Shown: positions 39,723-59,386 of the stretch, piece after piece
Layout of the letters: every line of letters begins with the position of its first letter
Numbering within the stretch: the stretch's first letter is position 1
Assembly: GCA_021822495.1 (NCBI GenBank)
Contig: JAKAQO010000002.1
Span: 97,044-161,043 of the forward strand
Direction: 5' to 3'
DNA: 64,000 nucleotides
From: a bacterium
Lineage (GTDB): Bacteria; Elusimicrobiota; Elusimicrobia; UBA1565; UBA9628
Notes under the pieces: generated by a model
The model's database searches: none
Told to the model about the DNA's origin: nothing
The model's input: the letters and a program-made list of their open reading frames with translations, nothing else
Position numbers and translations under genes: made by a program

Positions 39723-41525
39723 TCAAATTAAGAGTCCGATCAGGGCGCCGACAATACCAATCATCGTTCCAACGGTCACGCAAAGAGCCGCTGTCTTTAG
39801 GATAGATTGAATCATCTCCTTAGCGGTTCCAAAATGAAGATTTTCCAGTCGCAAAAGAAACAGGGACAAAGCGACTCCAACCGCCGCGCCAACGCCGGTT
39901 CCCGCGAGGAGAGGTAATCCAAGAAACCCCACAAGGCCGCCGGTGATGAGACCGATGGAGCCGAAGGTCAAGGCCAGTGGCACGATCGCCATGTTTCTAT
40001 CGCTATCGCCAGCGACATGATTAGTCCATAGGACGGCGCTCAAAACGCCGAGGACAAAACCGCCGATTGCCTCTCCGACTCCAAAAAGCGCGTGATGAAC
40101 GGCCAATGTTCCGCCGACACCCAAGGTCGCCGCATGAGCGGCGGCTGGCGCGAACATGGCCCCAATGAAGAAACCGAGAATAGACCCCATCAGCATATTG
40201 ATGGAGTCATCTTCGCCTTTTTTCGTCATGGCCGCGCCCACCCCCGCGCCGATAATAACTCCAAAGGCGGCCAGCGGAGCGATATGAGAAGCCGCGACGA
40301 GCAAGACTAGCCAGCCGATGCCGAAAATAAGGCCCGTGTCAAGAGACAAAGACTGGGATTGCGCCGCCTTGGGAAAGGAGATCACGCTCGATGAAGATGT
40401 GGGACTTAACTTTTCAAGGGCCGCGTTTACGCCCAAGGCCTGTTTCTGGTAATCGCTTGAGAGCGTCCTCCATTCCGCGATGTCCTGAGCCGAGGCCTTA
40501 TTTTCCGACAAGGCGTCCGCAATCAGGGCGCTCGCCAATGACATATCCTTTAAGTCTTGAATCGCCGCTTGCCCCGCCTCTTTTAACTTCGCCCATTTCG
40601 CGGCGTCTATTTGAACGTTTTTTCCCTGTAAACCCTTCGCGACATCAGTAATATTCTGGACAGAGGGAATCAATTCGTTCCAAGCTCTGCTGTTGATAAC
40701 GTAGGCCGTTGTCCCCAACGCCCTCGCGTCCATGCCGCTCAAATCCGTCTTTAGCTTTAAATCCCTAATAACATCCTGAGCTGTTTGATAGACGCCCTGG
40801 TTTCTAATGATGAAGTTAATGGTTTGAGCTTGACTTATCGCGGTGTCAATCGCAGCCTCAAGCGCCGCGCTTCCATTAGAGGACGGCGCGGGAACAGTGG
40901 ACTCGGCTTTGGAACTATTGGAGGCATTATTGGCGCTCTCTTCCTTTAAATAAAGGTTTTTCGCCTCACGAGAGACACGGAGAAATGGCGGAAATTTCGG
41001 AATGGAGTTCATCCCATATCCGGGGTAAGCCGGTTGAAGCCTTAAGCCGTCGAAAAGACTCGACCAGTTCGCGATATGATCCTTGAGCGCTTGGTGGATT
41101 TTCCGGATCGTTTGGATGCCTCGCGTTGCATGCTTGGCGGGTGCGGCTTTGAGAACGCGATTAGACGTTGTCATCACTCCGGCAATTCGTAAGCCGGAGT
41201 CTATTGTCGTCGTTTCTGGATTCCGGCTTTCGCCGGAATGACGCAACAACGCTTTCGTCGGGGTAACGCCCAATAAAGGCTCATTGCCTTGCATCAAAGA
41301 ATCATTAACGGGCTTCTCGGGAGATTGTATGTTAAGGAAATTATCAGCGGAGTTAGCGCCAATATTTTGCATTTGCGCGTTCAGGCCCGCGGGCACGATG
41401 TCCATGTCCGCGCGCTTTCCCGAAACATCGGACAAGGCCGCGTAGCAATTAAGCCCCGGGCTCATCAAAATGACGGCTAATGATAGAGTCACTGATAAAG
41501 TCTTCGTTAAAGTTTGTCCTTTCAT
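39723..41525 (-). CDS. Large exported protein with C-terminal glycine-rich membrane segments
   Basis: A 600-residue protein. The signal peptide is SVTLSLAVILMSPGLNCYA. The central part is helical with Ala/Gln/Asp-rich segments (AAIDTAISQAQTINFIIRN). The last 200 residues contain six or more Gly/Ala-rich hydrophobic stretches (GVIIGAGVGAAMTKKGEDDS, ALTFGSIGLITGGLVGFLG), like glycine-zipper membrane proteins. Residues 94-119 are encoded by a dispersed repeat (RHSGESRNPETTTIDSGLRI) and are probably a late insertion kept in frame. Function unknown. Confidence 0.7.
   Translation of the reverse strand: MKGQTLTKTLSVTLSLAVILMSPGLNCYAALSDVSGKRADMDIVPAGLNAQMQNIGANSADNFLNIQSPEKPVNDSLMQGNEPLLGVTPTKALLRHSGESRNPETTTIDSGLRIAGVMTTSNRVLKAAPAKHATRGIQTIRKIHQALKDHIANWSSLFDGLRLQPAYPGYGMNSIPKFPPFLRVSREAKNLYLKEESANNASNSSKAESTVPAPSSNGSAALEAAIDTAISQAQTINFIIRNQGVYQTAQDVIRDLKLKTDLSGMDARALGTTAYVINSRAWNELIPSVQNITDVAKGLQGKNVQIDAAKWAKLKEAGQAAIQDLKDMSLASALIADALSENKASAQDIAEWRTLSSDYQKQALGVNAALEKLSPTSSSSVISFPKAAQSQSLSLDTGLIFGIGWLVLLVAASHIAPLAAFGVIIGAGVGAAMTKKGEDDSINMLMGSILGFFIGAMFAPAAAHAATLGVGGTLAVHHALFGVGEAIGGFVLGVLSAVLWTNHVAGDSDRNMAIVPLALTFGSIGLITGGLVGFLGLPLLAGTGVGAAVGVALSLFLLRLENLHFGTAKEMIQSILKTAALCVTVGTMIGIVGALIGLLI
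41169..41243. repeat. Dispersed double-hairpin repeat, copy 1
   Basis: About 75 bp with two inverted repeats: ACTCCGGC / GCCGGAGT and ATTCCGGC-TTTC-GCCGGAAT. Related copies are at 53739-53810 and 57247-57316. On the minus strand it encodes HSGESRNP and GLRIAGV inside the exported protein. Confidence 0.9.
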
Positions 41526-46035: not shown

Positions 46036-46422
46036 ATGAAACCACTTCAAAAAATCTTGGTGATCGAGGACGAACCGGATATTCAGGAAATCCTCGCGCA
46101 TATCCTTAAAGACGCGGGTTATTCGGTCCGGGCCGCTGGAAACGGGCAAGATGGACTGCGCGCTTTCGAGGAATTCGAGCCGGAATTAGTTATTTTGGAC
46201 GTTCATTTGCCGGACATGAGCGGATTTGAGATTTGCCGCAAGATCAGAGAGCATAAAAGCCGCCAAGATACGCCCATTCTTCTCTGCACGGTGCGCTCGG
46301 AAACGACGCGCGTGGCCGAGGGACTCGATTCCGGGGCCAACGACTACATTCTCAAACCCTTTGAAATCGACGATCTTCTCGCCAGGGTTCGCTCAGCCCT
46401 TGAGAAGAAATCTAAAAATTAA
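46036..46422 (+). CDS. Single-domain response regulator
   Basis: A 128-residue CheY/Spo0F-like receiver. Conserved residues are the acidic pair in VIEDEPDI, the phosphorylated Asp in LVILDVHLPDMSG, the Thr/Ser position in LLCTVRS and Lys in DYILKPFE. There is no output domain, so it would act by binding a partner. It is the first gene of a four-gene operon with an OmpR-type regulator and motA/motB homologues. By analogy with CheY it might bind the FliG-like rotor protein; this is inference. Confidence 0.9.
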   Translation: MKPLQKILVIEDEPDIQEILAHILKDAGYSVRAAGNGQDGLRAFEEFEPELVILDVHLPDMSGFEICRKIREHKSRQDTPILLCTVRSETTRVAEGLDSGANDYILKPFEIDDLLARVRSALEKKSKN

Positions 46423-47108
46423 TGGCGCTAATCGCGGTCGTAGACGATAATGAAGAATGGGGAGATTTGTTTTTAACGATTATCCGGGATTGCGGCCATC
46501 AAGGCGATTATTATTCGACGGCCGGCCAATTTCTCGATAGTCTCTCTAAAGCGAAGCCGGATCTCCTCATTTTGGATATGCAGCTTTCTGGAATGCACGG
46601 CCGAGAAATCATTCGCATCCTGCGCACAAACCGGGAAACCCAAAGAATGCTCATTATCGCCGTATCCGGACACGATATAGGAAGTCCGCACGTCATCAAG
46701 GCGTTCGAAGCTGGAGCGGATGAGTATCTGCCTAAACCCATCGACATTCCCCTATTAAAAGTTCGCGTCGAGGCTCTTTTGCGCCGCGGAACCGACGGAA
46801 AAAATCTGGCCTCCAAGGATATTCAAATCGGAGATTTGCGGATTTCTCCGGAAAGCCGATTGGTGGCGATGGGAAAAAAAACATTGCCCTTAACGAAAAT
46901 AGAATTTGAGCTTTTGACGGCTTTTGTTCGGCAACCCAACAGAGTTTTGACGCGCGGCATCATCCTGGAAACGGTATGGAAGGCCCACGCGGACATGAAT
47001 ACCCGCACGGTGGACAAGCATGTCGAGACCTTGCGAAAAAAACTTGGAGATTTCGGAAAAAGAATCGAAACGGTGATCGGCATCGGCTATATCTTTAGGA
47101 AAAAATAA
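46422..47108 (+). CDS. OmpR/PhoB-type response regulator
   Basis: A 228-residue regulator. The receiver has VVDDNEEW, LLILDMQLSGMHG with the phosphorylated Asp, and DEYLPKPID. The DNA-binding winged helix includes LTKIEFELLTAFVRQPNRVL, RTVDKHVETLRKKLG and IETVIGIGYIF. Its ATG overlaps the previous stop (TAATG), and its own stop overlaps motA in the same way. It probably controls transcription of one or both of the convergent operons. Confidence 0.92.
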   Translation: MALIAVVDDNEEWGDLFLTIIRDCGHQGDYYSTAGQFLDSLSKAKPDLLILDMQLSGMHGREIIRILRTNRETQRMLIIAVSGHDIGSPHVIKAFEAGADEYLPKPIDIPLLKVRVEALLRRGTDGKNLASKDIQIGDLRISPESRLVAMGKKTLPLTKIEFELLTAFVRQPNRVLTRGIILETVWKAHADMNTRTVDKHVETLRKKLGDFGKRIETVIGIGYIFRKK

Positions 47109-47902
47109 TGGACGCCTCAATCTGGATTGGATTTTTATCCATCATTGGACTAGTCTCCTGGGCGATATTCAAGGCTGGGTTTACCAGCTCCTCGACCGAC
47201 GTTTACGGCCTTATTCTCGTGATCGGCGGTCTTATCACGAGCATGATGGTCAACTGCTCCCTGGGCGATTTAAAAAGCGCCTTCATTCAGTTTTTTTCTC
47301 TTTTCATGCCGTCCAACGTACCCAGCCCGGAAGAAGCGATTGAGCAAATCATCGCCTTGTCCAAGAAAGCCCAAAAAGAAGGCGGAATTTTGGCCCTTCA
47401 GTCGGAAGAAACCAATTTCGCGAACGGATTTCTTAAAAAAGCCGTCTTGGTCGCGGTTTCAACCGGGGAATCGGCGGAAACCCGGCGCATCATGGAAACT
47501 CATATTCGCCGCGTGAGAGTTCAGCGCCAGGAAGACGCTAATACTTTTCGGACAATGGCGGTCCTCTCTCCCATGTTCGGGCTTTTGGGAACCCTGCTGG
47601 GCATGGTGCATGTTCTTCAATCCATGTCGGATCCGACCAAGGCGGCCTCTGGAATGGCTCTCGCTCTATCCTCCGCTTTTATCGGCATCGCCATCGCCAA
47701 CGCCGTTTGCGTTCCCATAGCCGGAAAAATTCGTCTTAACGCGATGAAAGAAACGATGGTTTTAGACCTGATACTCGAGGGCGTTTTGGATATCGCGGCG
47801 GGAAAGCCTCCCTATCTCATCGAAATGCACCTGGCGACTTATTCGGATAAGCGGCAAACGGAGAATGCGGCAACCGCCGCGGAGAACGTTCCCCCAAAAT
47901 GA
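47108..47902 (+). CDS. motA: MotA/ExbB/TolQ-type stator protein
   Basis: A 264-residue protein with four membrane helices laid out as in MotA: two N-terminal, a long cytoplasmic loop rich in charges (RRIMETHIRRVRVQRQED), and two C-terminal helices. The conserved core SPMFGLLGTLLGMVHVLQ corresponds to the MotA/PomA GxxGT segment. The family forms a five-subunit ring around two MotB helices and turns ion flow into rotation. The four-helix form and loop make MotA more likely than ExbB/TolQ. Start overlaps the regulator's stop. Confidence 0.85.
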   Translation: MDASIWIGFLSIIGLVSWAIFKAGFTSSSTDVYGLILVIGGLITSMMVNCSLGDLKSAFIQFFSLFMPSNVPSPEEAIEQIIALSKKAQKEGGILALQSEETNFANGFLKKAVLVAVSTGESAETRRIMETHIRRVRVQRQEDANTFRTMAVLSPMFGLLGTLLGMVHVLQSMSDPTKAASGMALALSSAFIGIAIANAVCVPIAGKIRLNAMKETMVLDLILEGVLDIAAGKPPYLIEMHLATYSDKRQTENAATAAENVPPK

Positions 47903-48528
47903 GTTCCTGGCAAGAAAGAGACGAGGAACTCGAGTCCCAACTCAATCGCGGAGCCTTGTGGGCGATTACCTACGGCGACATGATGAGTTATTTGATGATT
48001 TTTTTCATGATTCTCTATTTAGGAACGTCTTCTCGAAGCTTAAAAATGCAAATGAATTCAAAGTCTATTGAGGAACGTTTTGGAAAAAAAGGAACCGTCG
48101 TTTCGGAGCTCTTTTCTAGGAATGGCATACAGAAAATAGCGAAACTGGAAGTTGGAGAAAATAAAATCCGCATCGTCTTTCAGGCGCCCGTCCTTTTTGA
48201 CTCGGGATCCGCGAGATTAAAAACCGGTTCGTCCGGGGATCTCAAAAAACTGGCGGCGACGCTTAAGGAGCTTCCCAACAACATTCAAATCGAGGGCCAT
48301 ACCGATAATCAACCTCTGGGACCGCATTCCGGTTTCGCCTCGAATTGGGAGCTGTCGGCGGCGCGGGCTTTCGCCGTTTTGCGTTTTTTTGAGTCGCAGG
48401 GAGTCTCTTCCGCGCGACTTTCGGCCATCGGCTATGGAGAATTTCGCCCTGTCGCCCCCAATAACACCGATGCCGGCCGAGCGATGAACCGCCGCATCGA
48501 AATCAATATCATGCGCCGCGAGAAATAA
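47899..48528 (+). CDS. motB: MotB-type stator protein with OmpA-like peptidoglycan-binding domain
   Basis: A 209-residue protein with one N-terminal membrane helix (WAITYGDMMSYLMIFFMILY). The Asp in YGDMM matches the ion-carrying Asp of MotB. The periplasmic OmpA-like domain has FDSGSARLK, IEGHTDNQPLG, NWELSAARAFAVLRFF and AMNRRIEI. This anchors the stator to the cell wall. The ATG overlaps motA by 4 nt. It is shorter than E. coli MotB (308), so the linker or plug region is reduced. Confidence 0.88.
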   Translation: MSSWQERDEELESQLNRGALWAITYGDMMSYLMIFFMILYLGTSSRSLKMQMNSKSIEERFGKKGTVVSELFSRNGIQKIAKLEVGENKIRIVFQAPVLFDSGSARLKTGSSGDLKKLAATLKELPNNIQIEGHTDNQPLGPHSGFASNWELSAARAFAVLRFFESQGVSSARLSAIGYGEFRPVAPNNTDAGRAMNRRIEINIMRREK

Positions 48529-48544
48529 GAGCCCGTTAAGAATA

Positions 48545-50638
48545 TCAGGAAATGCTCGCGGGAGTTTTAAGCGGAATCCTAAATTTGAAATTGCTTCCTT
48601 TTCCCTCCTCGGATTCGACCCATATTTTCCCATTGTGAAGCTCAACTATTTTTTTGCAAATGGCGAGCCCCAGCCCGTAACCGGAACGTGATTGTTGCCC
48701 CGGGACCTGCTCGAATTTTCCAAATACGCTTTGAAGGGCGTGTTTGGGAATACCAGGGCCGGTATCCCTGACTGAAAATTCTATTTCCCGTGGCCCAGCG
48801 CTTCCCGCCATGACGGCAATGGCCCCTCCCTTAGGCGTGAATTTAAGCGCATTGCCAATCAGATTCATCACGACGCGCTCAAGAAGCTGTTGATCACAGA
48901 TAAATTCATGCGGCGGAGGGCCGACCGTAAAGGAAATCGAAATTTCCTTATTTTGGCCCTGGATTTCATAAAGGGCCCGCATATTTTCTAATATTTTTCC
49001 GATATGAGCGGCGCCCAATTGGAGTTCCAACGTTCCTGACTCCAGCTTCGCTATATCTAAAATATCCTTCATCATGGCCGCGAGGCGATCCCGAGCTTGC
49101 TCGGAATACCCCAGATATTTTTTCTCGGCATCCCCAAACTGATTGGATTTCCGGAGAAGATTAAAAAACACGGCGAAAGGCGTCAAGAGATTGCCAATAT
49201 CATGCGCGACGGAATGAAAAAAGTCCTCCTTCATCTTACTTAGTTGTTTTTCAACAGTAATATCTCGTAACAAAATGAGAATGCCGATATCCTTTTTCTC
49301 CGCGCTGACAATCGCCCCAGAAACCGAAAAAATTCCGCGAGCCTGCCCGGAGAGCGTTTTTAACTCAAGTTCCGCCATGGCCTGCCGTTTTTTGCGCCCC
49401 ATCAGTTCGGCGATCAAGGAAAGAATTTCCGGTTGTCTAAAAAGCCCTCGGATACCGCCCGGGGGAAGAGAATTAGAAAGCATATCCAGACCTAAAATCA
49501 ATCTTCCAACGGCGTTGATGTGAAGGACATTCCCATTAAAATCGGCCATGACGACGCCTTCCGGGATATTATAGACCAAGCTTAGAATGCGGGCTCTTTC
49601 TTCGACAATCTTTTCAACCTGCATTTCATGATAAGAACGAAGGGCTTGAGCCATTTGATTGAAGCTTTTCGCTACGGTCTTAAGCTCTCCCCAACCTTCC
49701 TCGGGAAGGCGAATATTGAGGTCGTTTTTAGCCGCGCGCTGGGAAGCGAGGGCAAGTCTTTCTAATGGCGGCGCTAGGCGTCCAGTCACCCACCACGCTC
49801 CCGCGGCGGATAAGACGAGAAGCAGAAAAAGAAACGAGAGAACTTTCTCCAAATATCCCTCGGGGCGGGCAAAAGCTTCGGCCCTGGGCTCGAGACTGAC
49901 AGCCCAGAGATTAAGAGCGGGAATCGCGGAGTAGGCGGCGACCAAGGTTCCCAACCGACTAGGAATGTCCGTATCCCAACCGGAATCCCTTGACAACGGC
50001 TTGGGCCATTTCCAGCCGGAACCGGGAAACCCTTTGGCGATTCCCGGTAATTTCTCTCCACGAGAATCGAGAAGGATAAGCCGCCCCGTTTTTCCAACGC
50101 GTATTTTTTTGAGTTTTTTCCAAAGATTCTTGAGTGAATATTCCACATAGAGGCAACGATTTCTAGAAAGAGGGTAGGCCAGGGAAATAAGCGGAATTTG
50201 GGCTTTCAACTCAACGGGACCAATCTGGATTTTTCCACTTTGCCGCGCTTTCTCCATCAAGGATTGAGAGGCGACAATGGTATTATTGCCATAAATATCT
50301 GGATCAGACAAAGGCGGAAACTCAGTCGAGGAAGATTTAAAAATGGCGAGATATTCCAATTCACTGTGTCCAGCCGCCGCTTGTTGGAGGATTTTATAAT
50401 CTAAAGACGCATGGGCGCTTTGGTTTCGCTCCAGGTCTTCGACAAAGCCCAAGGAACGGTTCATTTCCAAGGCCGCATTCTCCGCCATCTGGGCCGAAAG
50501 TTGGACGATTTGCTTGTGAAACCCTTCGGCGTTTTCGCGAACCCCGGCTGTCGAATTGAGCATCCAAATTCCGAAGATAATCGCGGGAATAAGGGCAAAG
50601 GAAACCAAGATAAGAAGAAAACGTTGAAAAAAACTCAA
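48545..50638 (-). CDS. Membrane sensor histidine kinase with HAMP and PAS-like domains
   Basis: A 697-residue kinase. The first helix (FLLILVSFALIPAIIFGIWML) and a second near residue 260 (VLSFLFLLLVLSAAGAWWVT) bracket a periplasmic sensor region. HAMP (LERLALASQRAAKNDLNI), a PAS-like domain (LVYNIPEGVVMADFNGNV) and HisKA with the phosphoacceptor His in FHSVAHDIGNLL follow. HATPase_c motifs are VVMNLIGNALKFTPKGG, VRDTGPGIPK and GYGLGLAICKKIVELHNG. It overlaps the upstream kinase-like gene by 4 nt and converges on motB, with only 16 nt between the stops. Confidence 0.9.
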   Translation of the reverse strand: MSFFQRFLLILVSFALIPAIIFGIWMLNSTAGVRENAEGFHKQIVQLSAQMAENAALEMNRSLGFVEDLERNQSAHASLDYKILQQAAAGHSELEYLAIFKSSSTEFPPLSDPDIYGNNTIVASQSLMEKARQSGKIQIGPVELKAQIPLISLAYPLSRNRCLYVEYSLKNLWKKLKKIRVGKTGRLILLDSRGEKLPGIAKGFPGSGWKWPKPLSRDSGWDTDIPSRLGTLVAAYSAIPALNLWAVSLEPRAEAFARPEGYLEKVLSFLFLLLVLSAAGAWWVTGRLAPPLERLALASQRAAKNDLNIRLPEEGWGELKTVAKSFNQMAQALRSYHEMQVEKIVEERARILSLVYNIPEGVVMADFNGNVLHINAVGRLILGLDMLSNSLPPGGIRGLFRQPEILSLIAELMGRKKRQAMAELELKTLSGQARGIFSVSGAIVSAEKKDIGILILLRDITVEKQLSKMKEDFFHSVAHDIGNLLTPFAVFFNLLRKSNQFGDAEKKYLGYSEQARDRLAAMMKDILDIAKLESGTLELQLGAAHIGKILENMRALYEIQGQNKEISISFTVGPPPHEFICDQQLLERVVMNLIGNALKFTPKGGAIAVMAGSAGPREIEFSVRDTGPGIPKHALQSVFGKFEQVPGQQSRSGYGLGLAICKKIVELHNGKIWVESEEGKGSNFKFRIPLKTPASIS

Positions 50639-52140
50639 GGGTTTTTCTCCGCGTTTTCCAGAGAAGGAATGCCGGGCTCTCCCGCCTTGGGAAGATAAAT
50701 TTCGACAATCGCGCCTTTCGTATCCCCGGTGGAGATTTCCAGTTCTCCGCCGTAACGCCTGACAATTCGTCGGGCCAAGGAAAGCCCCAACCCCAAATGT
50801 CCAGGGCGAAGCGAGATAAAGGGAACAAAAAGTTGGGACAAGGCTTCAGTTGAAAAACCCGGCCCATTATCCGCGAAAGAGAGTTTGAGTTGATTTCTTT
50901 CCAAGTCCTCACCAACGCTTATTTTGAGATTTCCCCCTTTTGGCATGGCTTCATAGGCATTGCGGAGAATTTGATAGATAACCGTGCGCAGGGAAAGAGG
51001 ATTGAAGAGAACCGGCGGAATTTGGGCGGGAACGCGGCGTGATATTAAGATGCGTTTTCGCCGGAAAGCCGCATCCCAAACAGCCAAGGAAGATTCTAAA
51101 ACGGCGTCAATTCGGCCGGAAAGGGCGACAGGACTAGTTTCTCCAAGGAATTCTTCTATCATTTTAAGAACGTCAAGCCCTTGGGAAAGATATCCCATGG
51201 CCAAGCCCAAAACCGCGCGCGGGCCTTCCGGGAGTTTGAGCGTAGCTAACTGTTTAATGCGAGAATACGCCGAGGACAATGGGTTTCTGATTGCGGTCAG
51301 AGCCTTCATCCATTCCGGCTCAAGTGAGGCGTCTAGAGAAAGAGGTACGGGCGAAAGAGGTTGCGAAACCTCGCTTAGGGAAGGGAAAGAAGTGTTTTCA
51401 GAATCCTCCTCCAAAGGTCTGGCCATTGATATCCTGAGCCCCGCATTCTCCGGCGGCGTTTTTTTCGCCTCCAGGAGTTCCTGCTTGAGGGAATCATTAT
51501 CGGCGCTAAGGGCAGCGAGTTCTTTTTCCAAGTTAGCGATCTTGGGCGCGATTAGATCATCTTCCTTAAGGAAAAGCGTCTGAACTTTCTCTTGGAGTTT
51601 GAGCTTCTCATTCTCCACAAGAGAAAGAGCCGCTTGTGATTTCTTTAAGTTCTCTTCTAGCTCATATTTTTCGCGTTCAAGGCGTTCAAGGCTTTCAATC
51701 TTTTCTTTAATTTCCGCGCTCGATTTCTCCGCTTGAGCGCGGAGCTCGTTCAATTCTTCCTCTTTCCGCTCGACCAGCCGCTTCTCCTCGGCTTTGAGCG
51801 ACTCATTCTCCGATCGCAACGCCGAAATTTCGGCCAAAGACCTCTTTTTTTCGTTCTCCAGGGCTTCCGTTTTGCGCCGCAACTCGTCTTCAAGAGAGGA
51901 GATTTTGTCCTGAAGAGAATATTGCTCGGATTTAAACCGCGCGGCGAGGCGGCGTTCCAAGTCTACTTTGATATTGTCCCTAAGTTCTATTTCAGAGGCC
52001 TTAAAACTCGCGGCTTTTTCCTCCAACAGCAATGCCATCTCCTCGATTTCCAATCTTTCGGTATTCAAGTCGCTTGTTTGCGCTAGAAAGGTCGAGATTC
52101 CATCGAAATAGTAATTTTCTGTTTCCTCGTCCATATTCAT
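50635..52140 (-). CDS. Coiled-coil histidine kinase-like protein lacking the phosphoacceptor His
   Basis: A 501-residue cytoplasmic protein. The first half is charged coiled coil (LEDELRRKTEALENEKKRS and similar). A DHp-like helix carries TAIRNPLSS where kinases have HEIRNPL, so His is replaced by Thr. The ATPase domain looks intact (VIYQILRNAYEAMPKGG, FADNGPGFS, GHLGLGLSLARRIVRRYGG). It may bind ATP and act as a scaffold or regulator of the other two kinases. It lies 14 nt after the FliF-FliG gene. Confidence 0.85.
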   Translation of the reverse strand: MNMDEETENYYFDGISTFLAQTSDLNTERLEIEEMALLLEEKAASFKASEIELRDNIKVDLERRLAARFKSEQYSLQDKISSLEDELRRKTEALENEKKRSLAEISALRSENESLKAEEKRLVERKEEELNELRAQAEKSSAEIKEKIESLERLEREKYELEENLKKSQAALSLVENEKLKLQEKVQTLFLKEDDLIAPKIANLEKELAALSADNDSLKQELLEAKKTPPENAGLRISMARPLEEDSENTSFPSLSEVSQPLSPVPLSLDASLEPEWMKALTAIRNPLSSAYSRIKQLATLKLPEGPRAVLGLAMGYLSQGLDVLKMIEEFLGETSPVALSGRIDAVLESSLAVWDAAFRRKRILISRRVPAQIPPVLFNPLSLRTVIYQILRNAYEAMPKGGNLKISVGEDLERNQLKLSFADNGPGFSTEALSQLFVPFISLRPGHLGLGLSLARRIVRRYGGELEISTGDTKGAIVEIYLPKAGEPGIPSLENAEKNP

Positions 52141-52154
52141 TTCTTGACAATGCT

Positions 52155-53849
52155 TTAGATAAATTCCGAAGCGTTTTTATCTCCGAGGGATATTTCCCCC
52201 TTGCTCGCCAGCGCCTGGGTCCTGGAAAGAATACGGGATCTCGCCTCTAAAACCTTGCCCCTGGGCTGTGGAGATTCAATACCTTCTCGCGCGAGAGATC
52301 GAGCGCCCTCTGGAAGAAGTCCAAGAACCGCGTCGATAAGGTTTTGCGGAGCCCCGCGCAAAGCGATTCCCCACTCCTGATAACTGGAACTCATGATGAC
52401 GCGTCTTAAATCCGCGTCTTTAAGAACTGCGATATCCTCAAACGAGAAAAGAAATTTTTCAAGTTCTTCGGTCGCCTGCGGGTTTTGAGGAGAAAGCCCC
52501 CCAACCAAGGCCTCTCGCTCATCGATGGGAAGGCGACTGAGAATTTTCCCCAATTTTTCCGGGCCTCTAACGCCAAACTCAACGATATTTCTAAGCTTGT
52601 TTTCCAAGGCCTCTAGCTTTTCGGGATCGGCTACGGTAATGTTCATCAAGGCTTGGGAGGCTTCTCTTTGCTTGTTCGAGGAAAGCCCTGAAAAAATCGT
52701 GGCGGCTGTTTCCGGAGCCGAACTGGCGAGGGCGGCCAGTAAAAGGGCGATGTCATCAGGGGTTTCCGCGCTCAATAAATCCGCTAATTCCGAGGGTAAT
52801 TTAGATGAAAGGAAATCAAAACGCTGCCCGAGGGAGAGAACCGTAGTTGCCGCGCCCTCCAAAGGCGCGGCTTCTCCGGAAAGGCCCGGGATACCGCCTG
52901 GAAGAATCTCTGGAATCTGTTCTTTGCCGGCTTCTATTCCCAAGTTTCCGCTTTGAGAGGGAGAATAGGAATTTTGCGCTTGCCGCGCTCGCGCAAGCTC
53001 GGCCACGAAAGTCTTGACCACCCGCATCGCCGTCGCGTAAAAAATAAACCCGAACAAAAGAGTTAGAATGAGCGCGCCCAAAAGAAAAGAAGCGGTCACG
53101 GCTGATTTTGAGCTGGCCGCGAAATTTTGAAGGGCCAATTTCCAAGCCGGAAGAAGGTTGGCGCGCAAGAGAGTGAGTTGATCTCCTCTGCTTGTATCCA
53201 GATGGAGAACCTTCGGGAGAAGGTTTTGAACTTCCTTGGCCTTCGCCTCCGAAACGCGGGAATCTAAGATTACGGAGACAAGAACTTTTTTAACGATAAA
53301 ACCCTCCGTGAAGTTTGAATCCTCCTGGGATTGATGAATTCCACCCTCTTGCGGCGATTGTTTTTGGGCGGTTTGAGCTAAAGAAGGCGGAGCGGGGCCT
53401 TGGGCGTAATTGGTAAATCCTTGAGGAACGATAGGAACTCTTCCGGATATCAGGCGTTCTCCATATCCCGGCAGATAAGCGGCCTTTGGCGTCGAATCGG
53501 ACGCTTTCGCCGCTTCGGGAGAAACGGCGATAGAAGTGAAATTTTGCGTACGGCGCATTTCTCCTGAGACCGAAACCGTGACCCGCGCTCTTCCAGGACC
53601 AAGAAGGGCCGTCAAAAAATCCATGGCCTGGGCGGAGACATGATCCGCAATCCCGGTCTCTTGAGGAATCTCCGCGCGGCAGGGAACGGAAAGCGAAAGA
53701 AAGAGCGAAAAGTAAAAGAAAGCAAGGGAAAGAGACATCGTCACTCCGGCAGTCCGTAAGCCGGAGTCCAGAAATACAAACCCTGGATTCCGGCTCTCGC
53801 CGGAATAACGGAGTGGAAGCGCCTTTTCCGCGACTTTCCGTCCTTTCAT
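52155..53849 (-). CDS. FliF-FliG-like fusion protein (non-flagellar rotor candidate)
   Basis: 564 residues from ATG 53849, which has AAGGAAAG upstream; GTG 53879 and ATG 53738 (start of a clean signal peptide, MSLSLAFFYFSLFLSLS) are alternatives. Residues ~65-235 match the FliF C-terminal periplasmic region (AMDFLTALLGPGRARVTVSV; VKKVLVSVILDSRVSEAKA; LDTSRGDQLTLL). One membrane helix lies at ~260-275. Residues ~340-440 resemble the FliG middle region (PSELADLLSAETPDDIALLL) and ~465-555 the FliG C-terminal torque domain (FSFEDIAVLKDADLRRVI; IALRGAPQNLIDAVLGLLP; KVLEARSRILSR). Joining the two replaces the FliF tail/FliG-N interface. A dispersed repeat sits in frame near the N-terminus. No other flagellar gene is nearby. 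Confidence 0.8.
   Translation of the reverse strand: MKGRKVAEKALPLRYSGESRNPGFVFLDSGLRTAGVTMSLSLAFFYFSLFLSLSVPCRAEIPQETGIADHVSAQAMDFLTALLGPGRARVTVSVSGEMRRTQNFTSIAVSPEAAKASDSTPKAAYLPGYGERLISGRVPIVPQGFTNYAQGPAPPSLAQTAQKQSPQEGGIHQSQEDSNFTEGFIVKKVLVSVILDSRVSEAKAKEVQNLLPKVLHLDTSRGDQLTLLRANLLPAWKLALQNFAASSKSAVTASFLLGALILTLLFGFIFYATAMRVVKTFVAELARARQAQNSYSPSQSGNLGIEAGKEQIPEILPGGIPGLSGEAAPLEGAATTVLSLGQRFDFLSSKLPSELADLLSAETPDDIALLLAALASSAPETAATIFSGLSSNKQREASQALMNITVADPEKLEALENKLRNIVEFGVRGPEKLGKILSRLPIDEREALVGGLSPQNPQATEELEKFLFSFEDIAVLKDADLRRVIMSSSYQEWGIALRGAPQNLIDAVLGLLPEGARSLAREGIESPQPRGKVLEARSRILSRTQALASKGEISLGDKNASEFI
53739..53810. repeat. Dispersed double-hairpin repeat, copy 2
   Basis: About 72 bp with the same two inverted repeats as copy 1. 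On the minus strand it encodes RYSGESRNP and GLRTAGVT between ATG 53849 and the signal-peptide core of the FliF-FliG-like protein. Confidence 0.9.
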
Positions 53850-53875
53850 TTCTTTCCTTATATAAAGGATATACA

Positions 53876-55219
53876 TCACAAAACTATTGCGGTCAAGGGG
53901 AGACGAAAATAGAAGCGGCTGCCGATTCCGGGCTTTGACTCAACCCCAATTTCCCCCTTGTGCATTTCGATAATGGACTTGGAAATCACCAACCCCAATC
54001 CGACGCCGGTGGCCTTGAGCGGATTTCTGATTCTTTCGAAGGGAGCGAAAATTTTTTTGAGGTCTTTTTCCTCGATGCCGATACCGGTGTCTTTAACCGA
54101 GCACTCGGCCCAGGCGCCGTTTTGGACTAGCTCAACGGAAATTTTCCCTCCGGGCCTGGTAAATTTGAGGGCGTTTGATATGAAGTTGGCCAAAACGTGG
54201 GTGATGAGATCGGGGTCCAGACTTATTGGCGGAAGTTTTGAATCGACTTGATATTCAAGACTCATCCCCGCTTTCTGGGCGGCGGAAACAAAAAAAAGCG
54301 CCCCGTCCTCGATGATGGGAGCAAGCGGGAGGTTTTTTGGCATGAAATCGAGTTTGCCTCTTTCTATCTTCGCCATTTGAAGAAGATTGCTGACGAAATG
54401 GCTCAAGCGATGGACGTTGGCGAGAATCAAGGAAAGGCTTTTTCGGTCATCGTCTTGAACGCAGTTCGCGGACAATATGCGACTGACATGGCTCTCAATA
54501 GCGCCCAAGGGAGATCTGAGTTCGTGCGTGACGGAGGCGACGAAATCTTTTTTGAGCCGGTCGATTTCATCCAGTCGTTCCGCCATTTTATTGACGCCCA
54601 AGGACAATCGCCCGATTTCATCAGTCCCCAGTAGAGGGATGCGTATTTGGTTTTTTCCTTCCCCGATTTTAAACACGGCCGCTTCAATAACCCTAATTCT
54701 CCCCGAGAGTCCCCGCCCGATGGGTACGGCGATTAGAATTCCAACCAGTATAAAAACTCCCGCCGTCTTTTCCATTTCGCTCAAAAGATCTCGCCTCATC
54801 CGGGCGGTTTTACCCGCGATGACGGCGCGAGAAAGCCAAATCTGGGCTTTAAGAGAAGCGAGAGTTCCCTCGCTTTTTCCCGGAGCGGCAACATCGAGGA
54901 TAATCGCTTTCTGTTCCTTAAGTCCAAACCCCATCCCCTTGACGTCTCGCCAGCGTCCGTTCATCCAAATCCGAGCGCGGCCGATTTCGCGGTGTTCCTT
55001 TCCCAGAAGACGTAGGTAGTCGATCAAAATGAGGGGATCTCCGGCCAACTGAGCCTCCCGGATAATGCCGGACACGCCGCTTTTCATCGCCTGTTCTGTT
55101 TTGCTTTCAGACTTTTTGACAAGGGAATATTCAATTTCAAGAAAAACAAACGAGGAAACAATCGTCGCCACGCCGATTGCAGTAGCCAGAATCAAGGCCA
55201 GTTTATGCGCGAGCCTCAT
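53876..55219 (-). CDS. Membrane sensor histidine kinase
   Basis: A 447-residue kinase with two helices (LALILATAIGVATIVSSFVF and GVFILVGILIAVPIG) around a periplasmic domain of about 120 residues. HAMP follows (IRVIEAAVFKIGEGKNQIRI). HisKA has His in FVASVTHELRSPLGAIE, and HATPase_c has VLANFISNALKFTRPGG, VKDTGIGIEEKD and GVGLGLVISKSIIEMHKG. It overlaps the PorV-TPR gene by 4 nt and the FliF-FliG frame is directly downstream, so its signal is probably sensed at the outer side of this machine. Confidence 0.93.
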   Translation of the reverse strand: MRLAHKLALILATAIGVATIVSSFVFLEIEYSLVKKSESKTEQAMKSGVSGIIREAQLAGDPLILIDYLRLLGKEHREIGRARIWMNGRWRDVKGMGFGLKEQKAIILDVAAPGKSEGTLASLKAQIWLSRAVIAGKTARMRRDLLSEMEKTAGVFILVGILIAVPIGRGLSGRIRVIEAAVFKIGEGKNQIRIPLLGTDEIGRLSLGVNKMAERLDEIDRLKKDFVASVTHELRSPLGAIESHVSRILSANCVQDDDRKSLSLILANVHRLSHFVSNLLQMAKIERGKLDFMPKNLPLAPIIEDGALFFVSAAQKAGMSLEYQVDSKLPPISLDPDLITHVLANFISNALKFTRPGGKISVELVQNGAWAECSVKDTGIGIEEKDLKKIFAPFERIRNPLKATGVGLGLVISKSIIEMHKGEIGVESKPGIGSRFYFRLPLTAIVL

Positions 55220-57342
55220 TGTCCGTTTCCCCTTTGCCCTAAGCGTTCAAGGGCCTTTTTGGCCTCGGCGTTGTTGGGATCAATTTGAAGGATACGCAGA
55301 AACGCCGCCGTCGCGTGGATATAATCTCCCGAGGCGTAATCATCCACGCCCCGTCGGTAGAGCCTCATGATTTCCTTTCTCTCGCGGCTATTGATGGGCC
55401 GAATGAAAGGATTAAGAGGTTTTGTCTCCGCTTGAACTTTTTTGGAAGGCGTTTGAACCGCGGGAGCAACCACGCTTTTCTCCGTGGGAGAAAGAACTCC
55501 CCCCGGCAAAACCGTCTCCTTATTTTTTGATTCTCCCATTTTTTCCTTGGCAAGTTCCAAATAATTTTTCAAGGATTCGATTTCTCCGGGATTAGTTTCG
55601 CCCTGAATGGCTTTTTCCCAAGCAGACACGGCTTCTTGATACTGCCCGGTAACGTAATCAACCGAACCCAGCCTTTCCAGCGCGACCGTGTCATTGGGCT
55701 CGAGTTCCAGGATATCCTTGAGAATTTGCTTGACGCGCCCATATTCTTGGCTGTCGTTGGCCGCCTCCGCCTGATAGAGAAGCTGTCCGATAAATCCCAA
55801 GGGGTTATCCGGACTGACTCTTCGCGCCTTAATCTGGGTGACGGTCTCAAGTTTGCTTAAAACGCGGGAGATTCGAATGTCCTCGGGATTGAGAGACTCG
55901 GCATAGGAAACATGGAGCATCGCGGGGCGGTCTTTCCCCTCGATAAAATATTTAAGACCCGCGAACAGGGTTTGATTCCAGCGCTCGGAATTGAGCGGAA
56001 GCTCGGGATAAAACTCGCCGATGAGGTCGAGGCGATCGAGTAAAACCGCATAGGTAGGGTCGCCTTTGGGAAGAGCGTGCATCAAATCTTTCATCATTTC
56101 ATAGGCGGCGCCGAAGCGCCCCTGATTAACGAGTTCCCGAATTTTCACGAGCCGCGGGTCGCTTAAATCATGAGGTTTGGTCGCCGCTCCGATGTTAAGG
56201 CCTATCGGGATGAGGCCGTCCCGAATTTTGCGAGCCTTTTCCATTAAATCCGCCGTGAGAACGTCTTGCGGATCTCTTTTTCCAAAACGCCAGGTAATGT
56301 CTACTTGCTGGGTTCCGGCCGTCGTCGCGATTCCGCCTATCGGCATGACAAAGGCGTAATCAAATTCTATCTTATTGATGATGTAGGAAGCTCCCAAGGT
56401 AATTTGCCTCCAGTATTCGCTCCCGTAGCCCAGGGAACCGCGCAGAGCGAATTCTCCCCAGTCTAATGTCGGAAAAAAATGCTCGCCAGCAAGGATAAAG
56501 TCTTGCCCCTGGGTTCCGTCCGCCAATTGATCGCTGTCAAGTTCCGCGCTTAAATTCATCCACAAGGCGCTATAGGCAAGCCCGGCGTGAATATTGAGCG
56601 GGAGTCTTTCCGTTCCGCTGAAAGCGACGTTGGGCATCATCACGTGTTGAACGTCGAGCCCCGCCTGGAGGTGATCAGGAGCGCGGTAGAGAAGACCAAA
56701 ATCCGCGTCCGGAGTTCCCTGAGCGTTTCTTCCCGCGAGAACCGGGTCAACCCCCAAATTACAGTTAAAGCCTTGGCAGGAATTGGTGGCCTCCGTTCCC
56801 GGCTGAAAGCTGTGGTAGAGATATTTCGCGTTGGCCCCTATCATCAGCTCCGCCCCGGAATTAAAATCCATGATTTTTCGGCCGTAGGAAAGATAAAAAG
56901 TTTGCTCGCTATAGAGTTGGTTGAGGCCAAATCTCTGATAACCCAAGGCCATCGTTCCTTGTTTTCCGCCGGCCAAGGGTTGGGCATAGGTCATTTGAGA
57001 AAGCCCCAAATTCGATCCGTCGGAAAGACCGGTCAGAAGCTGGGCGTAGGCGACGGACGCCTGGGCCTGGCTGAGTTGGGCCAGTCCCGCCGGATTATAA
57101 TAAGCCGCGTAGGCGTCATCGGCAATGGCCGTAAAGGCCCCGCCCATTCCCGCGGCCCGAGCCCCGGCGCCCAAGTCCTCGAAGTAAGCGTCGGCGGGAA
57201 TAGAGAGAATGAAGATAATGGGAAGGACGGAAACGACTGCTTTTGCCGTCACCCCAACGGAAGTCGGGGTCCAGGCTTTCACAACAAACTGGATTCCGGC
57301 TTTCGCCGGAATGACGACATAATGACGAATAAAATCTTTCAT
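55216..57342 (-). CDS. PorV/PorQ-like outer-membrane protein with C-terminal TPRs
   Basis: 708 residues. The barrel part begins YFEDLGAGARAAGMGGAFTA, then DDAYAAYYNPAGLAQLS, the signature of PorV/UPF0164 proteins. The barrel spans roughly residues 50-350. The second half is helical with TPRs (QYQEAVSAWEKAIQGE; GDYIHATAAFLRILQIDPNN), presumably periplasmic. ATG 57342 overlaps the upstream stop. A dispersed repeat (VIPAKAGIQ) lies between it and the signal-peptide core (VVSVLPIIFILSIPADA); GTG 57252 would give a normal signal peptide without the repeat. PorV in Bacteroidetes serves type IX secretion; no other such genes are seen here. Confidence 0.8.
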   Translation of the reverse strand: MKDFIRHYVVIPAKAGIQFVVKAWTPTSVGVTAKAVVSVLPIIFILSIPADAYFEDLGAGARAAGMGGAFTAIADDAYAAYYNPAGLAQLSQAQASVAYAQLLTGLSDGSNLGLSQMTYAQPLAGGKQGTMALGYQRFGLNQLYSEQTFYLSYGRKIMDFNSGAELMIGANAKYLYHSFQPGTEATNSCQGFNCNLGVDPVLAGRNAQGTPDADFGLLYRAPDHLQAGLDVQHVMMPNVAFSGTERLPLNIHAGLAYSALWMNLSAELDSDQLADGTQGQDFILAGEHFFPTLDWGEFALRGSLGYGSEYWRQITLGASYIINKIEFDYAFVMPIGGIATTAGTQQVDITWRFGKRDPQDVLTADLMEKARKIRDGLIPIGLNIGAATKPHDLSDPRLVKIRELVNQGRFGAAYEMMKDLMHALPKGDPTYAVLLDRLDLIGEFYPELPLNSERWNQTLFAGLKYFIEGKDRPAMLHVSYAESLNPEDIRISRVLSKLETVTQIKARRVSPDNPLGFIGQLLYQAEAANDSQEYGRVKQILKDILELEPNDTVALERLGSVDYVTGQYQEAVSAWEKAIQGETNPGEIESLKNYLELAKEKMGESKNKETVLPGGVLSPTEKSVVAPAVQTPSKKVQAETKPLNPFIRPINSRERKEIMRLYRRGVDDYASGDYIHATAAFLRILQIDPNNAEAKKALERLGQRGNGQ
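57247..57316. repeat. Dispersed double-hairpin repeat, copy 3
   Basis: About 70 bp; the ATTCCGGC-TTTC-GCCGGAAT half is identical to copy 1, while the other half is diverged (ACCCCAAC / GTCGGGGT). It is translated as PAKAGIQ and TPTSVGVT at the N-terminus of the PorV-TPR protein. Confidence 0.85.
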
Positions 57343-57755
57343 CGGATGACCACCACCGTTCCATCATAAACTTCGCCGCCCGAGGAAAGAACGTAAACAT
57401 AAATCCCGCCGAGAACCGTTCGCCCGTTGGAGGTTCCGTTCCACATCAAGCATTGGAGCGTCGGAAGACTAGGGCAAGTAGGAGAAGAAGCCGGGCTCAT
57501 CTCAGCGACGAGATGACCCTTGAGATCGTAAATTTTTCCCGTAACGCTGGAAAATTGCGGATTAAAAAAAGAGACGATGAAAAAATCATTTTTCCCGTCG
57601 CCGTTGGGAGTAATGACGCGGCCGGATGAGGCATTGAAAGTGAAATTGTCCGAAAAAACCTTGGGCGTTAAAAGAAAAATGAACTCGAAAAGCAAAAAAA
57701 ACGCGCGGATGCGGGTTTTGCTTTTCCTTATAACGACTGGTCTTCGGTCCACCAA
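57339..57755 (-). CDS. Small exported protein made of a C-terminal NGDGKND-type module
   Basis: About 138 residues from TTG 57755 (GTG next codon also possible). A basic start and signal peptide (AFFLLFEFIFLLTPKVFS) lead straight into a module with VITPNGDGKNDFFIVSFFNP, IYDLKGHLVAEM, QCLMWNGTSNGR, GGIYVYVLSSGG and a terminal VVVIR. It resembles FlgD-Ig-like C-terminal domains of secreted proteins in several phyla. The same module ends the protein at 57842-59386. It is the first gene of the operon leading to PorV-TPR, kinases and FliF-FliG. Confidence 0.7.
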   Translation of the reverse strand: MVDRRPVVIRKSKTRIRAFFLLFEFIFLLTPKVFSDNFTFNASSGRVITPNGDGKNDFFIVSFFNPQFSSVTGKIYDLKGHLVAEMSPASSPTCPSLPTLQCLMWNGTSNGRTVLGGIYVYVLSSGGEVYDGTVVVIR

Positions 57756-57820
57756 GAAAGTATAGGGAAACGGCTCGAAATATTTGTTTCAACGGTGCGA
57801 AATCCGTGCGAATTCTTGGG

Positions 57821-57841
57821 AAAAGGGGACTGTCCCCTTTT
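57821..57841 (-). terminator. Hairpin terminator between the secreted-protein gene and the motor operon
   Basis: Arms AAAAGGGGA and TCCCCTTTT (9 bp) with a 3-nt loop, touching the stop codon of the gene at 57842. It could act in both directions. The GGGGACNGTCCCC core is also a common dispersed palindrome in bacterial genomes. Confidence 0.6.
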
Positions 57842-59386
57842 TTAGCGGATGACCAGGACGGTTCCGGTGTAGGTTTTCCCCTCGCCCTTAAGTTGATAGA
57901 CGTAGATGCCGCCGGGAACGATTCGCCCGCCGGATTTGGCGTCCCACATCAGGCATTGAGAAGCCGGCTGATCGGCGCAAGGTTGCATGCCGGAAATCAA
58001 ATGACCTTGAAGATCGAAGACTTGACCGCTGATGGCGGAATATTTCGGATTGTCGAATAAAAACTCCACCGTGTCATTTTTGCCGTCGCCGTTGGGCGTA
58101 ATCTCGCGATTGGAAATCCCCGCTTCGTTGAAACTAAATCCATTCGTTCGCTCGGCGGTGCGAATTTGATACTGGCCCAAATACGGAGTTTGAATGATCA
58201 AGGTCTGATCCGTCAAATCTACCTTGCCGTAAAATTGAATCCAGGCGCGGCCGTTAAACCAGAAAATGCTGGAATTTTGCGGCGTCGGCATGACGCCGAC
58301 CCCCGAGGGAGTGATGAGTCCGCTCGAAGTTGAAATCGCATAATGCAGGCTTAACTCAGAGAGTCCGCCCAATACGAAGGCGGGATTGGGCGTTAAACCG
58401 CCTGAAAGAGCCTCAATCGAAAGATTTTTAAAGGTTCCGCCCTGGATGTCCAAGGCGCTGAGCGGAGCGCTGTCAAGCCCAAGATAATAATTGGAAAGAG
58501 AAACGGTGGAGCTTGCGGGAATATCGAGGGTGCTCATCGAGTCATAGGCGACGACCCAGAAATCTCCGCTTGGAAACGCCCGGATATTGGAGGGAATGGA
58601 ATCTCCGCTTAAATTCTCCGATACGACATAGTAATACTCAGGCGTTGAGGGACTGATTCCAAAATCCGTCCAACTAAGGGTCGCGGTGGATAAAAGTCCC
58701 GGCGATATCTCGTTCCATGGAGCCCCCACGGCCGCGGTCGCGCTAAAGACGCGGTAGCCGGTGAGTTCGAGAGCCGTCGGGGCCGTGCTGACGGCGAAAG
58801 GCGTTCCGGTCGAAAATTCCGTGACCGGAAGCCAGGAGAAAATGGCTTTATTGGAGAAGGTGGAAATGGCGACTCCCAAGGGCTCCATCGGCAAATGAGG
58901 AACCAAGGAATAGGCGCAGTTGTTGAGATTATACCCCTTGGCGGAGCTGACCAGCCAGGCCCCGATATTGACGGGAACGGCCGAGTCCTGCGCGCGCAGG
59001 GCGAAACAGTAAAGAATTCCCGTCGGAAGGTCTCCAACCGTCATAGTTTGAGGAACTCCGGTTGAGACCGAGGGGAGGGTAAAAGAAGAGGTAAAGACGG
59101 AAAGATTTTGCGCCGCGATAAAGGCTCCGGTGTTGAGAATTTCGCCCATGGTCGAAGCCTTCACCGTGTAAGACAGCGGCGGATTGACTCCGTTGTAAAG
59201 CGGCCCGGTCCAAGTAAGCGTAATTTGCCTCGGCCCGGGCCCCGGTGTCGCGGTCAAATTCGTGATGAGCCCGACGCCCTGAAAAGTGGCGTCAAAATTA
59301 ATCTGCGCGGGATTTGCGGCCCAAATGGACATGGCAAGGCTTATCATCGCGGCGACTAGCGCGAACCTCGTCAGTGTCCGTTTCAT
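57842..59386 (-). CDS. Exported Ig/fibronectin-like surface protein with C-terminal NGDGKND module
   Basis: 514 residues. The signal peptide (FALVAAMISLAMSIWA) is followed by ANPAQINFDATFQG, an N-terminal motif shared with the next two surface proteins. FnIII-like regions follow (ITNLTATPGPGPRQITLTWT; ALELTGYRVFSATAAVGAPW). The last 90 residues are the module seen at 57339-57755: ITPNGDGKNDTVEFLF, VFDLQGHLISGM, QCLMWDAKSGGR, GGIYVYQLKGEG and terminal VLVIR. It starts 1 nt after the gene at 59388 stops, so they are co-transcribed. Function is likely adhesive or structural. Confidence 0.7.
   Translation of the reverse strand: MKRTLTRFALVAAMISLAMSIWAANPAQINFDATFQGVGLITNLTATPGPGPRQITLTWTGPLYNGVNPPLSYTVKASTMGEILNTGAFIAAQNLSVFTSSFTLPSVSTGVPQTMTVGDLPTGILYCFALRAQDSAVPVNIGAWLVSSAKGYNLNNCAYSLVPHLPMEPLGVAISTFSNKAIFSWLPVTEFSTGTPFAVSTAPTALELTGYRVFSATAAVGAPWNEISPGLLSTATLSWTDFGISPSTPEYYYVVSENLSGDSIPSNIRAFPSGDFWVVAYDSMSTLDIPASSTVSLSNYYLGLDSAPLSALDIQGGTFKNLSIEALSGGLTPNPAFVLGGLSELSLHYAISTSSGLITPSGVGVMPTPQNSSIFWFNGRAWIQFYGKVDLTDQTLIIQTPYLGQYQIRTAERTNGFSFNEAGISNREITPNGDGKNDTVEFLFDNPKYSAISGQVFDLQGHLISGMQPCADQPASQCLMWDAKSGGRIVPGGIYVYQLKGEGKTYTGTVLVIR

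Follow-up and report, generated by a model that had tools for sequence, protein, structure and literature searches.

The stretch analysed here (the window) comprises 64,000 nucleotides of contig JAKAQO010000002.1 (GenBank assembly GCA_021822495.1), from a 2.2 Mb, 94.7% complete genome of the phylum Elusimicrobiota. Two opposed operons at window positions 46036-59386 encode a fusion of the flagellar rotor proteins FliF and FliG, the stator proteins MotA and MotB, an outer-membrane protein (PorV-TPR) and two-component regulators. The plus-strand operon carries two response regulator genes, motA and motB, whose ends overlap or abut. The minus-strand operon begins with genes for a 514-amino-acid (aa) exported protein and a small exported protein; PorV-TPR, a histidine kinase, the fusion, the coiled-coil HATPase and another membrane kinase follow. 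Most of its genes overlap by a few bases, starting with that of the small exported protein. The operons are convergent, with 16 bases between the motB stop codon and that of the last kinase gene. Apart from the 514-aa protein, these genes had been named in a sequence-only reading of the window: Pfam and NCBIfam profiles recovered the plus-strand genes at the same coordinates, and the exported protein, PorV-TPR, kinase, fusion and two kinase-like proteins of the convergent operon were all present as placed. The genes are as follows:

46036-46422, plus strand: stand-alone CheY-like receiver-domain response regulator, 128 aa (Pfam Response_reg 6.9e-32), kept beside MotAB in loci of the window type
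46422-47108, plus strand: OmpR/PhoB-type response regulator (Response_reg and Trans_reg_C)
47108-47902, plus strand: MotA/PomA-type stator subunit (Pfam MotA_ExbB 8.5e-22; best NCBIfam match PomA, 2.1e-43; PDB MotA 8ucs, 3.8e-33)
47899-48528, plus strand: MotB, with plug and peptidoglycan-binding OmpA domain (MotB_plug 1.7e-10; OmpA 1.4e-20), channel aspartate kept
48545-50638, minus strand: membrane histidine kinase with HAMP domain (PAS and Cache matches weak)
50635-52140, minus strand: coiled-coil protein with C-terminal HATPase, which by gene order occupies the slot of the coiled-coil gene of other subtypes
52155-53879, minus strand: FliF(RBM3)-transmembrane-FliG(M,C) rotor fusion (YscJ_FliF_C 2.9e-6; FliG_M 5.9e-7; FliG_C 6.8e-17)
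53876-55219, minus strand: membrane histidine kinase; its gene immediately precedes that of the rotor, and in another subtype the two are fused
55216-57342, minus strand: PorV/FadL-type outer-membrane barrel with C-terminal TPR domain (NCBIfam PorV/PorQ 8e-16; top Foldseek match 6h3i_F, 1.2e-9)
57339-57755, minus strand: small exported protein, mostly a type-B sorting domain of the type IX secretion system (T9SS) (Pfam CHU_C 7.7e-10); the earlier description as a small exported protein stands and is made more precise by this match
57842-59386, minus strand: exported 514-aa protein with a C-terminal CHU_C-like domain (CHU_C 2.4e-5, slightly below the cut-off), likely a cargo or adhesin

The FliF-FliG fusion

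The fusion frame encodes 574 aa, with a signal or anchor segment that is hydrophobic from about residue 43, and the FliF C-terminal domain (PF08345) was matched at residues 89-237. An AlphaFold model had a mean predicted local distance difference test score of 72 (about 92-97 in FliG-C, mostly 85-96 in the RBM3 core). The parts of the fusion, all on the minus strand, are:

53154-53681, minus strand: periplasmic ring-building motif RBM3, fusion residues 67-242 (VIA-align Z 12.1-12.3 to the FliF S-rings 8z5v, 6scn and 6sd1)
53043-53099, minus strand: transmembrane helix, fusion residues 261-279 (hydropathy maximum 2.37; helix 260-302 in the model)
52587-52796, minus strand: FliG middle domain, fusion residues 362-431 (Pfam 5.9e-7; Z 11.3 and 1.9 Å over 80 residues to 4fq0)
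52185-52496, minus strand: FliG C-terminal (torque) domain, fusion residues 462-565 (Pfam 6.8e-17; 1.7 Å over 86 residues to the MotAB-bound FliG 8ucs_H)

The RBM3 part of the model was superimposed on FliF S-rings with a root-mean-square deviation of 2.4-2.6 Å over 94-95 residues, and FliG-C on solved FliGs at 1.5-1.7 Å over 86-87 residues, the MotAB-FliG complex 8ucs included. Comparison of a 13-homologue profile with a PDB set returned FliG-MC at 2.4e-46 and FliF at 8.5e-9. Profiles and model agree with the initial proposal that one polypeptide joins a ring-like periplasmic part, a membrane helix and the FliG torque domain: both FliF RBM3 and FliG-M/C were recognised, and the C-terminal half is FliG. 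The fusion has neither RBM1 nor RBM2, lacks the first FliF helix and shows no recognisable FliG-N. The structure search with the RBM3 part also returned OsmC/Ohr proteins (Z at most 9.1), which ranked under the FliF rows and which we read as a common alpha/beta topology.

The gene first placed at 52155-53849 was retained with another start. The open frame reaches 53879, and a dispersed inverted repeat, ATTCCGGCG(A)AAGCCGGAATCCAG (window 53730-53879, 57230-57345 and 41188-41230), runs into the 5' ends of both the fusion frame and the PorV-TPR frame. Because the repeat covers both 5' ends, the predicted starts of the two frames are probably too far upstream, and ATG 53738, not 53849 or 53879, is probably the true start of the fusion.

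Forms and distribution of the module

A neighbourhood search in relatives found the gene set conserved, and about 70 loci were mapped in some 35 genomes (the compared genomes are mostly draft metagenome-assembled genomes, MAGs). Four forms were distinguished. The window type (type 1) consists of a protein with a C-terminal sorting domain (CTD), PorV-TPR, kinase, fusion, coiled-coil HATPase and kinase; MotAB and two response regulators are encoded convergently. The kinase-fused type 2 has a single frame of about 810-840 aa (944 aa in the host genome) carrying HisKA, HATPase, RBM3, a transmembrane segment and FliG; kinase and rotor share one frame in 14 loci (L005 7289-10123 and 13 others). As several members have no methionine between kinase and ring, the two parts are taken to be one translation product. 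A conserved, signal-peptidase-like ARAQ sequence lies between them and may be a signal-peptidase site that separates kinase from ring; the frame could encode either a sensor built into the rotor or a polyprotein. In type 3 (TPR, about 660 aa), FliG is followed by TPRs and the gene by a long coiled-coil protein, MotA and MotB; this subtype is the commonest among the mapped loci and has no kinase nearby. Type 4 (short, about 480 aa) is accompanied by MotA, one or two MotB-like proteins and a TPR protein.

Neighbours were counted within 6.5 kb of the 45 fusion genes that had at least 6 kb of sequence on either side: MotA and MotB were found beside the fusion at 41 of these well-covered loci and PorV-TPR at 43. 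Since the host genome has only about a dozen PorV-family genes, the adjacency of PorV-TPR and fusion exceeds chance.

The gene set of the window had been described as a single locus; the set stands, but the host genome holds three fusion loci. All three of its FliG_C copies lie inside FliF-FliG fusions, each beside its own MotA and MotB, and the loci represent types 1, 2 and 3 (MotA of 259-264 aa). The other five MotA/ExbB frames of the genome are ExbB/TolQ-like (202-216 aa). By eye, a caspase-like exported protein is encoded directly downstream of motB at the host's TPR-type locus (L004 2975-4564), and a gene of similar length (531 aa) occupies this slot at the same-genus loci L076 and L078. 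At the kinase-fused locus, the genes after motB (L005 12735-15766, also by eye) encode an exported protein resembling HEAT repeats and a probable CHASE2/adenylate-cyclase-like protein, a possible second-messenger link.

For 62 loci, the distance matrices of the fusion and the neighbouring MotA were correlated with r = 0.92. When stators were shuffled within genomes, the mean was 0.24 (s.d. 0.08, maximum 0.59) and none of 2000 shuffles reached the observed value, which shows that rotor and stator are stably paired. The MotB channel aspartate (D32 equivalent) is kept in 66 of 69 family members, the window included, and the equivalents of MotA P173 and P222 in 62/62. Known torque contacts are those of MotA R90 with FliG D288/D289 and of MotA E98 with FliG R281 (PMC12505986). 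The R90-D288 contact is kept in type 3 as K/R in MotA with E in FliG (23/23), and an R90 (MotA)-E289 (FliG) contact is kept in type 4 (9/9).

The suggestion that the genome has no flagellar gene set elsewhere was borne out. The FlhA export gate (PF00771) gave no match in the host genome and was matched in four control genomes; the FliM/FliN C-domain (PF01052) was likewise absent from the host genome and detected in the controls. The N-domain of full FliF, with RBM1/RBM2 (YscJ_FliF, PF01514), was found in 0/38 relatives including the host, again with control genomes matched. SctV, the export gate of the injectisome (non-flagellar type III secretion system), was not found in the host genome; its FHIPEP domain is that of the FlhA searches. 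Across 295 Elusimicrobiota genomes, FliG_C was present in 120 and FlhA in 3, and FliM/N exceeded the cut-off in the identical three. In two of these flagellated genomes, G069 and G236, a stand-alone FliG is encoded close to flagellar genes. In G236, FliF (495 aa), FliG (320 aa) and MotAB lie on the flagellar contig, and PorV-TPR, fusion and MotAB on a separate contig. The FliG-MC tree split 63 fused proteins from four flagellar FliGs (ultrafast bootstrap 97). The FliM-binding EHPQ motif was dropped as a marker of FliM loss, because it also diverges in the flagellar FliGs of the phylum.

A non-exhaustive scan of 84,980 species with short patterns of one subtype (TPR) gave only matches titled Elusimicrobia/Elusimicrobiota MAGs or unnamed-bacterium MAGs. 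One Elusimicrobiota family (f7), with small genomes of mostly 1.2-1.7 Mb, is almost entirely without FliG_C among the matches listed, and FliG_C presence may track lifestyle.

Proposed outer-membrane partner and machine, and alternatives

In the PorV-TPR model, TPR helices follow a FadL/PorV barrel. The top Foldseek matches of the model were the T9SS translocon PorV subunits 6h3i_F and 8gl6_F (8gl6 with bound substrate CTD); FadL-type barrels equalled the PorV scores in a second alignment, and the NCBIfam PorV/PorQ subfamily match (8e-16, 58.5 bits) did not reach the curated cut-off of 90. At many loci, PorV-TPR is preceded by a giant exported protein of 1,300-2,900 aa with a conserved FlgD/T9SS-like terminal domain. 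The host genome has 8 Por_Secre_tail matches at E up to 0.1, 7 of them over the cut-off. CTD genes lie directly upstream of PorV-family genes at five places of the host genome that have no motor (CTD/PorV: C3:8276/8646, C3:60961/61320, C15:198843/198176, C5:43285/42851, C13:2822/3539); the pairing of PorV with a CTD protein therefore seems to be general, and the motor would have been added to it. SprA_N was not found in the host genome and was weak in 4 of 38 relatives, in a search of unproven sensitivity for which no control genome gave a match; GldM was not found in the 38 genomes, where the control gave no match either.

We consider the locus probably to encode a non-flagellar, ion-driven rotary machine, with a FliFG rotor and MotAB stator coupled to PorV-TPR. 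The pairing of a non-flagellar rotor with a MotAB stator, judged from sequence, is highly likely; coupling of this motor to PorV is somewhat favoured, and gliding or adhesin movement as its output is offered tentatively. Mechanistically, copies of the fusion would assemble through RBM3 into a periplasmic ring, each anchored by one helix, and their FliG-M/C arms would line up as a track in the cytoplasm. Stators of composition MotA5-MotB2, tethered to the peptidoglycan by MotB and driven by the proton-motive force, would push on the C-domains of FliG in the manner of flagellar stators; the machine would work without FliM/FliN, rod, export gate or filament. The turning ring might engage the TPR domain of the PorV-type protein in the periplasm, and the barrel might carry or release exported proteins with type-9-like sorting domains, so that surface adhesins would be moved (gliding) or exported. 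The histidine kinases and receiver proteins would control or sense the motor.

At its broadest, the proposal is of a separate bacterial rotary motor, in which a minimal FliF-FliG rotor with dedicated MotAB drives surface adhesins via PorV-TPR; we hold this to be plausible and somewhat short of probable. Gliding or adhesin transport would then be independent of flagella and GldLM, with several paralogous versions per cell, one with a built-in kinase, a picture that is equally tentative.

Several findings weigh against the rotary proposal. Operon linkage alone could give the rotor-stator correlation, as co-inheritance reflects linkage and not contact. The E98-R281 charge pair has mostly been lost from MotA and FliG alike: the R281 position is G in 6/8 type 1, 23/23 type 3 and 9/9 type 4 members, and the E98 position of MotA is Q or A in most. 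Neither contact is kept in type 2 (FliG Q288/M289; MotA Q or H at 90), so that, the usual R90/D288-D289 charges being lost, its stator contact must differ. Four well-covered loci have no MotA nearby. Finally, the search of the host genome for SprA, the T9SS channel by which large CTD proteins might cross the outer membrane, gave no match, as it did in the control genomes.

Alternatively, the same motor could supply the energy for exporting CTD proteins, or for anchoring them at the surface, via PorV rather than move the cell. The best match of PorV-TPR to T9SS PorV and the CTD genes that precede PorV-family genes at motor-free places fit this view, but most such pairs lack an adjoining motor and the SprA search of the host genome, with its silent controls, was negative; export as the output is on balance rather unlikely. 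Less probable still is a sensory device, in which the kinases would sense surface contact mechanically, from the load on the stator or the movement of the ring. The kinase is in frame with the rotor in the 14 type 2 loci and adjoins it in the window type, but the commonest, TPR, subtype has no nearby kinase, and the ARAQ site of the fused form may split kinase from ring. It is also conceivable that the fusion does not rotate but serves as a scaffold, with MotAB simply transducing ion-driven force as the Tol and Ton systems do. The partial loss of charge contacts and the lack of FliM/FliN to shape a C-ring would suit such a scaffold, but the stators belong to the long, flagellar class (PomA) and vary in step with their own rotors, and we judge it improbable. 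A relic or accessory part of a flagellum, suggested by the clear homology to FliF, FliG, MotA and MotB, is rejected on the genome counts (nearly all 120 FliG_C genomes lack FlhA or FliM/N) and on G236, which holds a full flagellar FliF/FliG/MotAB set plus the separate module; the fused FliGs also form their own clade and the channel residues are conserved.

A Zorya defence system was also rejected: the window MotA had no ZorA match (ZorC, ZorD and ZorE were not searched for), and the window MotB matches ZorB, as expected for a MotB homologue.

Significance and comparison with known systems

Searches of the open-access literature on FliG, FliF or MotA with Elusimicrobiota, PorV or non-flagellar roles found no description of such a system, in line with the sequence-only reading. 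Elusimicrobiota go unmentioned in a 2025 survey that covered MotAB homologues from 205 genomes. Three ion-driven rotary motors are listed in a review (PMC9127263), namely FoF1, the flagellum and T9SS. If the proposal is true, a FliG rotor with its own MotAB and no flagellum would be a further machine beyond these three; it would show that as little as RBM3, one helix and FliG-M/C can serve for torque, and would offer a natural FliM/FliN-free system in which to test torque generation. It would also be a candidate motility or adhesin-transport system for a phylum known mainly from metagenomes, and has implications for the evolutionary recruitment or release of flagellar parts. Elusimicrobiota almost all lack flagella, yet a genome can hold several copies of the module, whose one-protein rotor ring and torque arm, own ion-driven stator and proposed link to an outer-membrane protein suggest an undescribed rotary machine for moving something at the cell surface.

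The 5:2 motors ZorAB, AglRQS, ExbBD and TolQR likewise use a MotA/MotB-type ion channel in a non-flagellar role; to our knowledge, none has a FliG-type rotor. FliF is joined to FliG in the Vibrio chain PDB 8z4d, but that chain has 945 residues, and here the rotor is natural, shortened and found in flagellum-free genomes. The Bacteroidota T9SS/gliding machinery (GldLM motor, PorV, SprA, SprB) has in common with the proposed machine an ion-driven motor, a PorV-type barrel, large exported proteins with a sorting CTD and two-component control; it differs in that the motor here is MotAB with FliG and not GldLM, the TPR domain is fused to PorV, and SprA was not found in the host genome (no control genome matched). 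With the flagellar motor, the module shares homologous RBM3, FliG-M, FliG-C, MotA and MotB and the channel residues. What the module lacks is FliF RBM1/RBM2 and the first helix, any recognisable FliG-N, FliM and FliN, and the export gate; the rotor is one polypeptide, and PorV-TPR and CTD proteins take the place of rod and filament.

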